Shown here one piece after another: positions 18,138 to 62,368 of a DNA stretch of 64,000 nt. Below the pieces are notes generated by a model, which was given only the letters and a program-made list of their open reading frames with translations, was not told where the DNA came from and searched no databases. Numbering within the stretch: the stretch's first letter is position 1; the number at the start of each line of letters is the position of its first letter. The stretch comes from a virus: IMG/VR virus record IMGVR_UViG_3300026116_000002, positions 1-64,000 of that record. One strand, 5' to 3'. The position numbers were made by a program, and so were the translations under genes.

Positions 18138-18170
18138 AAGCCGCCCGCACCACAGGGCGGCTTTTGTTTA
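18138..18170 (+). terminator. Rho-independent terminator
   Basis: AAGCCGCCC (18138-18146) pairs with GGGCGGCTT (18155-18163) around an 8-base loop, followed by TTGTTT. Confidence 0.85.
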
Positions 18171-18177
18171 CACGAAA

Positions 18178-18222
18178 TACTATACATTTTAGCTTGACAT
18201 GATCACTCGGCAGTGCTATAAT
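18178..18222 (+). promoter_or_regulatory. Rightward consensus sigma70 promoter
   Basis: TTGACA (18194-18199), 17-bp spacer, TATAAT (18217-18222), both perfect; box TACTATACATTT at 18178-18189 as at 14266. Confidence 0.9.
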
Positions 18223-21189: not shown

Positions 21190-21218
21190 TTGCCAAGCGA
21201 AATGATCTGTGCTATTAT
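21190..21218 (+). promoter_or_regulatory. Promoter ahead of the large terminase
   Basis: TTGCCA (21190-21195), 17-bp spacer, TATTAT (21213-21218); close to sigma70 consensus. A GCCGACGCCCG/CGGGCGTCGGC hairpin (~21262-21291) lies in the leader. Confidence 0.65.
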
Positions 21219-21322
21219 AGAGTTGTTCGGTTGATAGTTACTCTAACGGTGATCTCCTTGCGGGCGTCGGCTGTCATGGGCCGACGCCCGTGCTCACGTC
21301 AGGTGTGTGGTAGACTGTCAGT

Positions 21323-24106
21323 ATGGTGTACGTACCGAGAAAAACCGCAGCGCCCCCTCCGATAGTGCTCGATGACGAACTCATAAGTCAGATCAAGACG
21401 ATTGCGACTGGCTACATCCAGACCGAAGCAACCCCCGAGGCGGCGTACGCCAAACTCCTCAAAACGTTCCACATGCTGCCTGAGAAGGTGATTATCGAGG
21501 CGCTGACGCCGAAGGTACTCCCTCCGATTCCCGCGAGGCCAATACTCCATGAAGGCCAGATCGATATCAAGTCTCATGCCAAACGCTTCAACGTTATCAA
21601 CTGCGGCAGGCGCTTCGGTAAAGATATCCTTTGTATCGACCTCGCGATTGACATATTGGAGAAGGGCGGCAAGTGCGGCTGGTATCAGCCAACGTACAAG
21701 TCTCTCATGGAGGTATGGCGTGCCTGTAAGCGCATTCTCGCCCCGATCATCCCAAAGAATGGCATCAATGTCCTCGATAAGCGCATCGAGGTAACCACTG
21801 GGGGCTTGATAGAGTTTTGGTCTCTTGACGGTGACCCGGAAGCCAGCCGAGGCCGAGACTACGACCGAGTAATCATCAACGAGGCGGCTAAGGCGCGTCA
21901 GCTTCAGACGGCATGGGACTTGGCGATCAGGCCAACACTCATGGACCGCCGTGGTGACGCGTGGTTCCCGTCGACCCCGAGAGGCCGTGATTACTACTTC
22001 GATCTATTCCAGCGCGGCCAGGTTGGCAGTCTTGATTATGACCCGAACTGGGTGTCGTGGCAGAAACCGACGCATGACAACCCTCACATCCCCAAGGAAG
22101 AATTGGTCGACGCCGAGAAATCTATGCCGGTCACCGTCTACCGTCAGGAAATCTTGGCTGAGTTTCTGGACGTTGCGGGGCGGTTCTTCGACGAGTGGGA
22201 ACCTGCGCAGTGGGTCACGTTCATCGACGCAAGCGGCAAGATAAGTCAGCGCGAAGAGGCTTGGCATGTCGTGGAGCCATTCCCGATCCCGGACCACTGG
22301 CAGGTGTGGGCATCGGTCGACCCAGGCACAAGCAAGCACGCTAGAACTCACGCGGTGTTGTTCTTTGCCTCTGATCCAGAGGGCGGGGTTGTAATATTTG
22401 ACGAAATCTATGAAAAGGGGAAGCAGTCAGCAGAGCAAGCAGAGTTATTGCTACTGAAACTTGAGACGTATAAAAGGGCTTGCCCTGTTGACCCTGCTCG
22501 CCGTAATGGACTATGGCGGCTTAATACAGGGCCAATCCCGTGCGATTACGCCAACTTCTTTCCCCCGCCTATCAGTCATACAAGTAATGCGGTGTCGTTG
22601 GCAAGTGCGGAGCGAATCGGTAAATGGCCCGTTGAATATTATCATGAGCGTGGTATTCGAGCCGTAAGAGCCGTAAAAGATCGCATTGCTGGTTGGCGAG
22701 AAATGAAACAATGGCTTCATGACACTCTCCCTATTAAGCCAGATTCTGCCCGACTTTCTAAGGTTGACGGAGAAGACAGTCGCCCTAAGCTTCGCGTCTT
22801 CAGGGGAAGGTGCGCAAATTTAATTCGCACGATACCCCTGATGATACGTGACGAGCGAAAACCCGAGGATATTGAAGAGGACACTCTTGGGGTTGGTGAT
22901 AACGCCGGTCACCTGGAGCAGCATCTCGTTGACTGCTGCTTTATTGCCGGGACATTAATATCAACTAGCTTGGGAGACCGCCCGATCGAGGATATTAAAT
23001 ACGGTGATATGGTGTGGACACGTAAAGGTTTGAGACGTGTAATCGCTTGCGGCCCTACCACACCGCGCGTCGTAGGTAAATTGATGATCGAAAGCGCGGA
23101 AATAGTAGGTACGCTGGACCACCCTGTATGGGTTGACGGGCAGGGGTTTACTGCCTTGGGTGCGATACGGTATAATGACAAGGTCGTTACCGTTAACCCC
23201 AAGGAGTTAGGCAAATGCCAGAGGTACAAGTCTTCGAAGGTGTCACATACCGCCGCTACCCGGAGTCAAAGCAAGAGTGCCATCGCAGGTATTTCTTCAG
23301 TAATAAGGACAGTTTGCATCGGGCTATATGGCGATCGGCTAATGGGGAAATCCCTAAAGGATATCATGTCCACCATAAAGACGAAGACTACTCGAATAAC
23401 ACGCTGGATAACCTTGAATGCCTGTCGCCCGACGAACACCGAAAGCGACATCCGTACAAGGGCAGTGGTAACATTATTTGGTGCAATTTCTGCGGTAAAG
23501 AGTTCAGCGCCAATACTCGGAATGACCGAGATCGATTTTGCTCTAACAGGTGCAAGTCAGCTTGGCGCAGGGCTAGTGGGGCTGACAATGAGCAACGCAT
23601 ATGCTCATGCGGGAAAGCCTTTGTTGTCAACCGCTACGAGGACACTGTTCACTGCTCTCGGCAGTGCGCTAGGCCGGGTGGCTACGAACGTCCTAAAATC
23701 GCTACGACTTGCAGGCAATGCTGGAAGGTTTTTGTTGCACGCAGTCAGAAGGCCATTTACTGCTCTACGGCCTGTCGTAAGCGATGGGATAGAAATCATA
23801 GGGGTAAGGACAGTCTACAACCTAACGGTTGAGGGTTGCCCCGAATACTTTGCAAATGGGGTCCTGGTCCATAATTGCAGGTATGGCCTCATGTCTCGGC
23901 CCGGAGTATCACCGGATGAGCCGGAAGCCGAGATGACGCCGCAGGAAGTGTACGTAAGCACGAACCAGGCGAGGGATGACGCGGCCCTCGACTATCGCAA
24001 CGCCCGCATGGGCCTCAAGCGCGATGGCTTCCACGAAGACGGCTCTGTGAAGTGGGTTGCATCAAAGCGTATCAAGCCCAAGTCAAGGCGACCGATGGGC
24101 GTCTAA
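21323..24106 (+). CDS. terL: Terminase large subunit, interrupted by an intein
   Basis: 927 residues as encoded; about 614 after removal of the intein (residues 539-851). NCGRRFGKD (~93-101) is the Walker A variant of large terminases and RVIINEAAK (~182-190) the Walker B with catalytic glutamate. The nuclease half begins near ASVDPGTSKH (~328). After splicing, ...HLVDC joins CRYGLMSRP, the DxxRYGLMSRP region near the end of the nuclease domain. The enzyme pumps and cuts DNA into the procapsid through the portal. Sequence flanking the intein (about 22380-22930) uses more A/T-ending codons than the ends of the gene, as if converted with the intein. No strong ribosome site is seen. Confidence 0.85.
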   Translation: MVYVPRKTAAPPPIVLDDELISQIKTIATGYIQTEATPEAAYAKLLKTFHMLPEKVIIEALTPKVLPPIPARPILHEGQIDIKSHAKRFNVINCGRRFGKDILCIDLAIDILEKGGKCGWYQPTYKSLMEVWRACKRILAPIIPKNGINVLDKRIEVTTGGLIEFWSLDGDPEASRGRDYDRVIINEAAKARQLQTAWDLAIRPTLMDRRGDAWFPSTPRGRDYYFDLFQRGQVGSLDYDPNWVSWQKPTHDNPHIPKEELVDAEKSMPVTVYRQEILAEFLDVAGRFFDEWEPAQWVTFIDASGKISQREEAWHVVEPFPIPDHWQVWASVDPGTSKHARTHAVLFFASDPEGGVVIFDEIYEKGKQSAEQAELLLLKLETYKRACPVDPARRNGLWRLNTGPIPCDYANFFPPPISHTSNAVSLASAERIGKWPVEYYHERGIRAVRAVKDRIAGWREMKQWLHDTLPIKPDSARLSKVDGEDSRPKLRVFRGRCANLIRTIPLMIRDERKPEDIEEDTLGVGDNAGHLEQHLVDCCFIAGTLISTSLGDRPIEDIKYGDMVWTRKGLRRVIACGPTTPRVVGKLMIESAEIVGTLDHPVWVDGQGFTALGAIRYNDKVVTVNPKELGKCQRYKSSKVSHTAATRSQSKSAIAGISSVIRTVCIGLYGDRLMGKSLKDIMSTIKTKTTRITRWITLNACRPTNTESDIRTRAVVTLFGAISAVKSSAPILGMTEIDFALTGASQLGAGLVGLTMSNAYAHAGKPLLSTATRTLFTALGSALGRVATNVLKSLRLAGNAGRFLLHAVRRPFTALRPVVSDGIEIIGVRTVYNLTVEGCPEYFANGVLVHNCRYGLMSRPGVSPDEPEAEMTPQEVYVSTNQARDDAALDYRNARMGLKRDGFHEDGSVKWVASKRIKPKSRRPMGV
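23171..23206 (+). promoter_or_regulatory. Internal -10 box and Shine-Dalgarno of the nested HNH gene
   Basis: Inside the intein coding sequence a perfect TATAAT (23171-23176) is followed by AAGGAG (23201-23206), eight bases before the HNH ATG at 23215. No good -35 is visible at 17 bp. Confidence 0.6.
23215..23832 (+). CDS. HNH homing endonuclease nested out of frame in the intein
   Basis: 205 residues, +2 frame relative to the terminase. Residues ~47-75, GYHVHHKDEDYSNNTLDNLE then CLSPDEHRKRH, are an HNH nuclease of the type found in phage homing endonucleases (HH...N...N...H). Three cysteine clusters follow: CNFCGKEF...FCSNRC, CSCGKAF...HCSRQC, CRQCWKVF...YCSTAC, likely zinc fingers for DNA binding. 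It has its own AAGGAG ribosome site. It begins directly after the intein N-terminal splicing domain and ends inside block F, so the two proteins share ~618 bases in two frames, both open. It presumably cuts inteinless terminase genes and spreads the intein. Confidence 0.85.
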   Translation: MPEVQVFEGVTYRRYPESKQECHRRYFFSNKDSLHRAIWRSANGEIPKGYHVHHKDEDYSNNTLDNLECLSPDEHRKRHPYKGSGNIIWCNFCGKEFSANTRNDRDRFCSNRCKSAWRRASGADNEQRICSCGKAFVVNRYEDTVHCSRQCARPGGYERPKIATTCRQCWKVFVARSQKAIYCSTACRKRWDRNHRGKDSLQPNG

Positions 24107-31967: not shown

Positions 31968-31990
31968 CCACTGTGCACCCCACGCACAAC

Positions 31991-32020
31991 CTCCCGGCAC
32001 CCCTGCCGGGAGGTTTTTCT
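31991..32020 (+). terminator. Rho-independent terminator after the capsid genes
   Basis: CTCCCGGCA (31991-31999) and TGCCGGGAG (32004-32012) form a 9-bp stem with a 4-base loop, followed by GTTTTTCT. Confidence 0.9.
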
Positions 32021-59289: not shown

Positions 59290-59317
59290 TTGCCTGCTAC
59301 GTCAATTGTGATATAAT
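59290..59317 (+). promoter_or_regulatory. Promoter of the lysis module
   Basis: TTGCCT (59290-59295), 16-bp spacer, perfect TATAAT (59312-59317). It starts right after the esterase stop. Confidence 0.75.
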
Positions 59318-59330
59318 GAACGAAAGGTGC

Positions 59331-60252: not shown

Positions 60253-60489
60253 ATGCCCATAGTGAACTCGGACAACATCGTATCGCTCATCACAGCCGTA
60301 ACTGCACTGGTAACGGCTGTCGGCGCGATCATCAACGGGTATCGGAACCATCAGGAGACGAAGGCTAACATTGCCCGCATCGACGCCCATAACGACACCG
60401 TAGGGGCGACGGCGATTTCAGCCCTCGCTGACTCTGTACCGATCTCTGCGATACCGGCGCTGGCGGCTACTACAAGGGAGACTCAGTAA
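60253..60489 (+). CDS. Small membrane protein of the lysis module
   Basis: 78 residues after TAGGAGGGCAT. NIVSLITAVTALVTAVGAII is a hydrophobic helix near the N terminus, then a charged periplasmic- or cytoplasmic-type helix (NGYRNHQETKANIARIDAHN). The topology would fit an i-spanin-like or antiholin protein, but it lacks a recognisable spanin partner. Confidence 0.55.
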   Translation: MPIVNSDNIVSLITAVTALVTAVGAIINGYRNHQETKANIARIDAHNDTVGATAISALADSVPISAIPALAATTRETQ

Positions 60490-61097
60490 TGCCGAAAGGA
60501 TTTGACGCCTACGCGTCGATGAAGCACGGAATGGCTGAGAAGTTCGCAGCGGACGGATACCAGTTCAGCGCTGGCTATCTCTTTGTGTCAAGTGGCTTCA
60601 AGGTGCTTCGTGATCGTTCGGAGTGCGAAGCTGTAACTGATGCTGGCATGTCCAATGTACTGATCTTCGAGAACGGCAGACCGATCAACGACGCCTACTT
60701 TAACGCTGCCAAGGGCGAATACGATCACGTACATGCTATCCCGCTCGCAATAGCCACTGGCGCGGTACGAAACGGCACAGTTGGCCTCTACTACGCCGTC
60801 GATGGCGATGCAAGCTCAGACCCAAACGGGCCGGTCGCCAACTACTTCCGGCATGTGCATGGTCCAACCCGTGACGCAGGTTTCCTGACGGGGGTTTACG
60901 GCTCAGGCGCGGTATGCAAAATGCTCGTCGAACTCGGCCTCGTGACTAAGACTTGGCTTTCACAGTCTACAGGCTTCCCCGGATACCACGACTGGCTAGC
61001 GAAGGCCGATATCGTACAAGGCCATTCGGCCAACGTGCACGGGATCGACATAGACTACGATATTAGCGATGGACACGCTGGCGGGTTCAAGGTATAA
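60489..61097 (+). CDS. Endolysin, DUF1906 glycoside hydrolase-like
   Basis: 202 residues. PKGFDAYASMKHGMAEKFAA then YQFSAGYLFVSSGFKVLRDR, EAVTDAGMSNVLIFEN, YYAVDGDASSDPNGPVANYF and FLTGVYGSGAVCKMLVEL follow the DUF1906 (Rv2525c-like) barrel: GFD at strand 1, acidic YYAVDGD at strand 4, GVYGSG at strand 6. Members act as phage endolysins. No signal peptide, so export through the holin is expected. Coupled to the previous gene (TAATG). Contains the promoter of the downstream RNA in its last 30 bases. Confidence 0.7.
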   Translation: MPKGFDAYASMKHGMAEKFAADGYQFSAGYLFVSSGFKVLRDRSECEAVTDAGMSNVLIFENGRPINDAYFNAAKGEYDHVHAIPLAIATGAVRNGTVGLYYAVDGDASSDPNGPVANYFRHVHGPTRDAGFLTGVYGSGAVCKMLVELGLVTKTWLSQSTGFPGYHDWLAKADIVQGHSANVHGIDIDYDISDGHAGGFKV

Positions 61098-61098
61098 T
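61070..61098 (+). promoter_or_regulatory. Promoter of the 61105 RNA
   Basis: TGGACA (61070-61075), 17-bp spacer, perfect TATAAT (61093-61098), inside the end of the endolysin gene. Confidence 0.75.
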
Positions 61099-61104
61099 GA
61101 ACCA

Positions 61105-61298
61105 AATCAAGGCACGTGCTTAATTGTCCACGACCTTTTAAAACGGCTGGCAGAAACGCGCGATGCGGAGGACGATTAAAAACCGGCACCGTCTGAGCTT
61201 AATAAAGAGCGGTTCTAGCCAACCTCGGATGCCTGCATAGTCCACCGATCAAAGGGCTTGCTAGAACGCCCCTCCCCGCTTATGCAGGGAGGGGCGTT
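61105..61298 (+). ncRNA. Stand-alone structured small RNA candidate
   Basis: Own promoter at 61070-61098, no ORF, and a strong hairpin at the end. AATTGTCC (~61132) pairs with GGACGATT (~61171) over eight bases with one G-U; GTTCTAGC (~61213) pairs with GCTAGAAC (~61260) over eight; TCGG/CCGA is nested in the latter. GCACGTGC is self-complementary near the 5' end. About 190 nt in size. It lies between lysis genes and the convergent leftward operon, whose 3' ends it might also affect. No known family recognised. Confidence 0.6.
61265..61298. terminator. Strong hairpin between convergent genes
   Basis: AACGCCCCTCCC (61265-61276) and GGGAGGGGCGTT (61287-61298) pair perfectly over 12 bp with a 10-base loop. 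It lacks a clear T-run but sits between convergent transcripts and probably serves both. Confidence 0.75.
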
Positions 61299-61334
61299 GC
61301 TATATCAAGCGACCAGTTTCATCACGCTTGGCGT

Positions 61335-61775
61335 TTATGTCTGGAATGAAGCATCACCTCCTGCATCATCTGAAATATCCGCTGCAAACTCGGGGTGCTG
61401 AGTAATCATGTGCCTGCCTAAGTCGGTAAAAGTTCGATTACAGCACGGGCACACGCCATTTGCTATACGGTTCCTGATTTTTGTCACTTGCCCCCTAAGA
61501 GCAGACCGACTTCGCTCCACCACCATGCACCTATCTCGTTCACGTCGGGCTTGCGTTTCAGCTATCTCCAAGTTTTTTGCAGCGCGGGCTAACTCTTGCT
61601 TGAGGCGATCAGTCTCCGTAACACGGTAAACTCGTGGATGACCATTCGGGCAGTAAAAGTTTCCGCCCGACTCTCTGCGTTGTTCATCGAACCTCTCAGG
61701 TACGCCAAAGTTGACGCCGCACTCTCCGCATTCGATGACCACAAGACTGAATTCGCGCGTTATCGCAACCTTCAT
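61335..61775 (-). CDS. Zinc-finger phage protein
   Basis: 146 residues. CGECGVNFGVPERFDEQRRE, YCPNGHPRVY give a first zinc site; a coiled coil follows (LKQELARAAKNLEIAETQAR); then GVCPCCNRTFTDLGRHMITQ gives a C2H2-like finger. The same three-part arrangement occurs in many phage proteins of unknown function. Overlaps the upstream HTH gene by four bases. Confidence 0.75.
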   Translation of the reverse strand: MKVAITREFSLVVIECGECGVNFGVPERFDEQRRESGGNFYCPNGHPRVYRVTETDRLKQELARAAKNLEIAETQARRERDRCMVVERSRSALRGQVTKIRNRIANGVCPCCNRTFTDLGRHMITQHPEFAADISDDAGGDASFQT

Positions 61776-62368
61776 GACTTATTCATCCTCGCTTCCAAGT
61801 CGATCATCCTTACTCTTGGGGCACGATCATTGCCAAACATTTTCCCTGTAAACCTGCCCATGTTGACGAGTTGCCTTACGCGCTCCCGGCTAATACCAAG
61901 CACTTCAGCGGCCTGTGTCTGCGTCACCCATTCGATGCCGTCATCGTCAGTGTGACTTCGGTCTTGGCTATTGACCGGCTCAGGCGGTAAAGCTGCAAGT
62001 TCCGCCGCGATTTCTTCGGGTGTTTTTGGTAACGGCCTCATGTTGCCTGTGGACCGATGGTAATTGTAGCAATTTTTGCAAAGCCGCCTTGCGTATACCG
62101 AGCCATGCCCGCAATGGCTGCACATTTCGCCTAGCAGACGTCTCTGCGTGATACCGTGACATTGTGGGTCATACGTGGTAAACCACTCTTGTACGTCCCG
62201 CAAAAGAAATTGCAATCGCCCTGTATCCCAAAAACCACTCCTACTAGACCGCTTACGGGTAACCGGCACGCGTCCTTGGCGTGCCGCTTGCATTAAGACC
62301 GCGACCGGCACGCCGACCGCAGCAGCAGCCTCCTCTGTCGACATAACACCACCAAGTTCTGCTTCCAT
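61772..62368 (-). CDS. Protein with two HTH segments around a zinc finger
   Basis: 198 residues starting right after the previous stop (TAGATG). MSTEEAAAAVGVPVAVLMQA is HTH-like; CSHCGHGSVYARRLCKNCYN is a zinc finger; TQTQAAEVLGISRERVRQLV is a clear MerR/excisionase-type HTH. A DNA-binding role in replication or regulation is likely. It lies downstream of, and is probably co-transcribed with, the DUF3987 gene. Confidence 0.7.
   Translation of the reverse strand: MEAELGGVMSTEEAAAAVGVPVAVLMQAARQGRVPVTRKRSSRSGFWDTGRLQFLLRDVQEWFTTYDPQCHGITQRRLLGEMCSHCGHGSVYARRLCKNCYNYHRSTGNMRPLPKTPEEIAAELAALPPEPVNSQDRSHTDDDGIEWVTQTQAAEVLGISRERVRQLVNMGRFTGKMFGNDRAPRVRMIDLEARMNKS

Follow-up and report, generated by a model that had tools for sequence, protein, structure and literature searches.

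A hairpin, a non-coding spacer and a predicted promoter at the convergent junction of a phage genome

At the end of the lysis genes of this phage, a short stretch of DNA separates genes read rightwards from genes read leftwards, and the question it raises is what, if anything, is made or ended there. The initial annotation had proposed an independent regulatory RNA, with its own promoter and terminator, lying between the two gene blocks. The reading to which we give slightly better than even confidence, from the anatomy of the sequence, is that of a shared bidirectional termination junction, the rightward side of which carries a probable promoter that possibly makes an RNA of about 200 nt. On this account the junction is plausible and fairly ordinary, with the promoter as its one unusual element.

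Genome setting of the junction

The sequence examined (the window) covers positions 1–64,000 of a virus record 74,887 bases long. Rightward genes occupy roughly 12.7–61.1 kb and finish with a holin (PF05105), two small reading frames and the endolysin. All genes called between 61335 and the end of the record lie on the strand opposite to the lysis operon; this leftward block, which starts at the far end of the record and reaches 61,335, includes a DUF3987 helicase-like protein, a helix-turn-helix protein and a cysteine-rich protein. The opposing stop codons end at 61097 (endolysin) and 61335 (cysteine-rich gene), which places the stretch at a convergent junction, as first described (Table 1). 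Both ends of the record lie in the same 27-base tandem repeat (positions 1–150 of the window and 14703–14887 of L003), so the genome is probably circular and cut within the repeat, and the 61-kb junction would then be its main convergent junction. The repeat codes for a GSASNSG-type repeat protein, with a weak match to collagen that falls below the cut-off. Elsewhere in the window, a tRNA-like gene on the minus strand at 882–956 has the anticodon CUA (ARAGORN ‘Pyl’; Rfam tRNA, 42.9 bits) and is possibly an amber suppressor; TAG stops end about one-fifth of the called genes, and the sequence past TAG is mostly non-coding in appearance.

Table 1. Features of the junction, in window coordinates.
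Feature	Position	Strand	Basis or remark
Endolysin, final gene of rightward late/lysis operon	60489–61097	+	PF08924, 2.1e-13; phrog_13480 endolysin, 4e-14
Sigma70-type promoter in end of endolysin gene, TGGACA-17-TATAAT	61070–61098	+	11/12 consensus; predicted
Non-coding spacer: lysis-operon 3' untranslated region and body of putative short RNA	61098–61264	+	Coding scores at or near off-frame level; fold at level of shuffled sequence
Imperfect helix TTAATTGTCC (61120–61129) / GGACGATTAA (61170–61179)	61120–61179	+	One G-U; minimum-energy fold of 61105–61306
Two crossing complementarities	61212–61224 with 61255–61267; 61232–61239 with 61281–61288	+	Repeat search; both borrow bases of the terminal hairpin
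Core GC-rich hairpin, probable bidirectional stop	61265–61298	Both	12-bp stem and inner pairs; U-tract on neither side
Extended hairpin of leftward transcript	61244–61317	−	30 pairs; −47.8 kcal/mol; z −5.9
Cysteine-rich protein, final gene of leftward replication operon	61335–61775	−	phrog_33336

The hairpin and a shared transcription stop

The 12-bp GC-rich hairpin of the initial annotation is present, and it lies between the two opposing stop codons and forms on both strands, with core energies of −28.8 kcal/mol in the rightward RNA and −32.2 kcal/mol in the leftward RNA. When flanks are included, the rightward RNA folds into the core and small separate hairpins (−41.3 kcal/mol, z −4.7), whereas the leftward transcript forms one extended hairpin, and a slightly longer leftward stretch reaches a z of −6.75; the leftward fold is the stronger because its G-U pairs turn into A/C mismatches in the rightward direction. 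The core is 36 bases from the leftward stop codon, compared with 167 from that of the endolysin. By its anatomy, the hairpin would serve the leftward operon no less well than it would the proposed small RNA, and the stronger leftward fold and the nearness to the leftward stop make a common stop likelier than a private terminator of that RNA. The description of the unit as self-contained is doubtful for the same reason, the hairpin folding better in the leftward transcript. Nor did the word ‘terminator’ hold in its canonical sense: no U-tract adjoins the hairpin on either side, a terminator scan of 60900–61800 was empty and, since the U-tract is missing, we do not class the hairpin as a canonical intrinsic terminator.

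We propose that the rightward late/lysis and leftward replication operons share this one hairpin, which would mark the 3' ends of both. The nascent hairpin would pause each polymerase and, given the missing U-tract, we invoke some help from collision, in that a head-on meeting with the opposing polymerase may assist the stop. The 167 bases between endolysin and hairpin would be untranslated 3' sequence of the lysis operon, and the promoter at 61070 would probably start a transcript of about 195–200 nt, to be regarded, until a target is demonstrated, as accessory to the junction or a by-product of it. This proposal is consistent with the position of the hairpin and the strand asymmetry of its fold, and with a spacer that is no more structured than shuffled sequence. 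It also has precedents: in phage tf, converging units are split by a predicted bidirectional terminator (PMC3517423), and at convergent E. coli genes nascent hairpins stabilize head-on collisions (PMC13082048). Two observations fit it less well. T-rich hairpins elsewhere in the genome suggest that canonical terminators are usable, so that the absence of a U-tract is odd for a strong terminator, and a simple terminator has no need of a promoter, yet the match at 61070 is unlikely to have arisen by chance.

The hairpins with T-runs, likely canonical terminators, are at 31988–32015, after the gene that follows the putative major capsid gene, and at 18138–18163, shortly ahead of a promoter at 18194 with perfect consensus. 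In addition, within 21190–21292 a promoter-like TTGCCA-17-TATTAT is followed by a 14-bp GC-rich hairpin (21259–21292, −29.1 kcal/mol) just ahead of the terminase start at 21323, and this region, where the late operon begins, may be an attenuator or antitermination site; the terminase gene itself (21323–24106, 927 aa) includes a Hint domain (PF13403, 5.5e-07), so that an intein is probable.

Single-protein queries of viral contigs with the endolysin, helicase, portal and major capsid proteins found no close relative of the phage, and exact DNA patterns of the hairpin and the promoter start were absent from the same contigs. Among genome contigs, the capsid query gave no relatives and the endolysin query gave only relatives of 31–34% identity, all of them without the spacer. 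A profile search with the cysteine-rich protein yielded 80 viral loci. When the fetched loci were surveyed mechanically for convergent junctions, most of those returned were false, and only one locus, L010, was usable. Its endolysin, 38% identical to the present one, converges with a gene block containing the cysteine-rich gene. Between the opposing stops lies a gap of 84 bases, which holds a U-poor GC-rich hairpin (−26.2 kcal/mol), in agreement with a bidirectional stop, but has no room for a small RNA of approximately 200 nt. The likeness goes only so far: the DUF3987 relative in L010 has 31% identity, a portal match is absent, gene order and virion genes differ and the endolysin does not end a matching late operon. 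By these sequence comparisons L010 is a distant, weak analogue rather than a close homologue, and it counts for the shared stop only to that extent.

The promoter and the spacer

The near-consensus promoter sequence reported in the end of the endolysin gene is present, with a match at 11 of 12 consensus positions, beyond what chance would give. Its TATAAT includes the endolysin stop codon TAA (61095–61097) and its predicted transcription start lies near 61105. Seven sites in the window match the sigma70 consensus at 11/12 or better, all with a spacer of 17 bases, compared with none in 15 Markov simulations (one strand); codon-shuffled late genes give an expectation of 0.025 such sites for the late region and strand, where one, the 61070 site, is observed. 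With so few chance sites expected, the promoter is probably real, and in our judgement the 61070 site is rather likely to be a genuine host-type promoter. The remaining three strong rightward sites lie 31–36 bases 5' of a start codon, whereas the 61070 site is the only strong rightward match without a rightward gene after it. A further site upstream of the holin, TTGCCT-16-TATAAT at 59290–59325, has TATAATGAACnAAA in common with the 61070 site, and these are the only two exact copies of TATAATGAACnAAA in the window. A late-promoter motif common to the two sites was considered and rejected, the similarity downstream of TATAAT not being significant (P about 0.10).

The stretch that follows the promoter is non-coding, as had been stated, in that 61098–61264 shows no clear coding signal. 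Hidden small genes were tried and set aside: a frame of 25 aa scores like off-frame sequence and one of 36 aa falls at the 6th percentile of coding windows, and the best match of the small frames in the spacer to PHROGs has an E-value of 0.32. A promoter that is probably real and a non-coding stretch behind it together make a short transcript plausible, and a transcript of approximately 200 nt (about 195–200) may be predicted from the 61070 promoter.

The structure of the putative RNA is another matter. The fold of 61105–61306 has a z of −2.84, which is owed to the terminal hairpin; without it, two computations gave +0.76 and +0.48, not above shuffled sequence. Two 8-bp helices had been described within the RNA, and both perfect complementarities do exist (GTTCTAGC/GCTAGAAC and CCTGCATA/TATGCAGG, from a repeat search); the two helices, however, cross each other and the second is mutually exclusive with the terminal hairpin, and no defined structure therefore follows from them. 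The hairpin is far more stable than CCTGCATA/TATGCAGG, which makes a switch of the RNA between the two unlikely, and for the imperfect helix TTAATTGTCC/GGACGATTAA we found no evidence of conservation. Rfam 15, searched with the window at gathering scores and with the locus at a relaxed E-value, left the putative RNA unmatched, the best score for the locus being 10.6 bits for sX6 against a cut-off of 40, and DNA resembling the spacer was found neither in annotated phages, nor in viral contigs (by exact patterns), nor in any fetched locus. Target prediction, which the initial annotation had suggested as a check, gave duplexes with phage start regions that were no better than those of shuffled RNA (P 0.7), as judged from duplex energies without accessibility and for phage start regions only.

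These results bear directly on the idea of an independent regulatory RNA, transcribed from about 61105 to the hairpin and base-pairing with phage or host mRNAs. The consensus promoter, the absence of a gene behind it and the non-coding spacer are all as such an RNA would have them, and phages do make RNAs of this kind (PMC12197685; PMC5712189). Set against this are the lack of structure beyond the hairpin, the missing U-tract, the absence of an Rfam family or of a conserved copy in the collections searched, and the lack of a phage target beyond chance, and we consider the idea possible but unsupported, and on the whole doubtful.

The promoter match might also be accidental, the product of coding sequence followed by a stop codon, with no start at 61105. 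The 61070 site is intragenic while the other six strong sites are intergenic, and its −35 element is TGGACA compared with the perfect TTGACA of the other six. The very low expectation from codon-shuffled genes argues against coincidence, as does the position of the site just where the longest non-coding stretch beside the lysis genes begins, and this explanation is decidedly unlikely.

Decidedly unlikely too, finally, is a hypothetical arrangement in which the promoter serves to supply opposing polymerases early, at a time when the late operon is not transcribed. Leftward early transcripts would then end at the U-less hairpin, an antisense run through the lysis genes would be avoided and the RNA of approximately 200 nt would be a by-product or second regulator. 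The placing of a host-type promoter 167 bases ahead of a hairpin that leftward RNA forms better, the lack of a U-tract and the hairpin-stabilized collision shown at convergent E. coli genes (PMC13082048) would suit this arrangement, but L010 has a similar hairpin and, in the region scanned, no comparable promoter facing it.

Should the junction be only a bidirectional stop, it represents a normal way for phages to separate two converging operons. If the promoter is used, the junction becomes a test of whether phages put promoters at convergent junctions for collision termination or for a lysis-side small RNA.

Comparison with known systems

The layout recalls that of the lambda 6S RNA, the pR'-tR' leader, in which a promoter is followed by about 190–200 nt and then a hairpin, adjoining the lysis genes. 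The lambda unit, however, precedes the late operon, and Q antitermination lets polymerase read through it, whereas the genes past the present hairpin are on the other strand, so that there are no co-oriented late genes into which to read through, and a lambda-like antiterminated late leader is thereby ruled out. The 6S RNA is listed as Hfq-dependent in a compilation in which several phage small RNAs are characterized (PMC12197685). Cluster A mycobacteriophages make abundant non-coding RNAs, and those of L5, D29 and StarStuff resemble the putative RNA in being intergenic phage transcripts without long reading frames; they differ in having been detected by RNA-seq (the genome-end RNA also by Northern blot) and in that the principal RNA is transcribed from an early promoter located at the end of the genome (PMC5712189), and they have no known sequence relation to the putative RNA.

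The shared stop that we favour has counterparts as well. In the Pseudomonas phage tf (LUZ24-like), two converging gene blocks with host sigma70-like promoters are likewise parted by one hairpin, a predicted bidirectional terminator, although that phage is unrelated and the part of its description referred to here mentions no promoter immediately ahead of the terminator (PMC3517423); the hairpin of the present junction differs in having no U-tract. In E. coli, convergent transcripts end where polymerases collide head-on at positions set by nascent hairpins, and with the hairpins a collided complex lasts about 150 minutes instead of about 6; at ynaJ-uspE, a hairpin between the converging genes sets both transcript ends (PMC13082048). 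The E. coli case is chromosomal and experimentally shown, whereas ours is one of sequence anatomy with an extra promoter nearby, but, by analogy, a U-less hairpin between two operons fits this collision mode.
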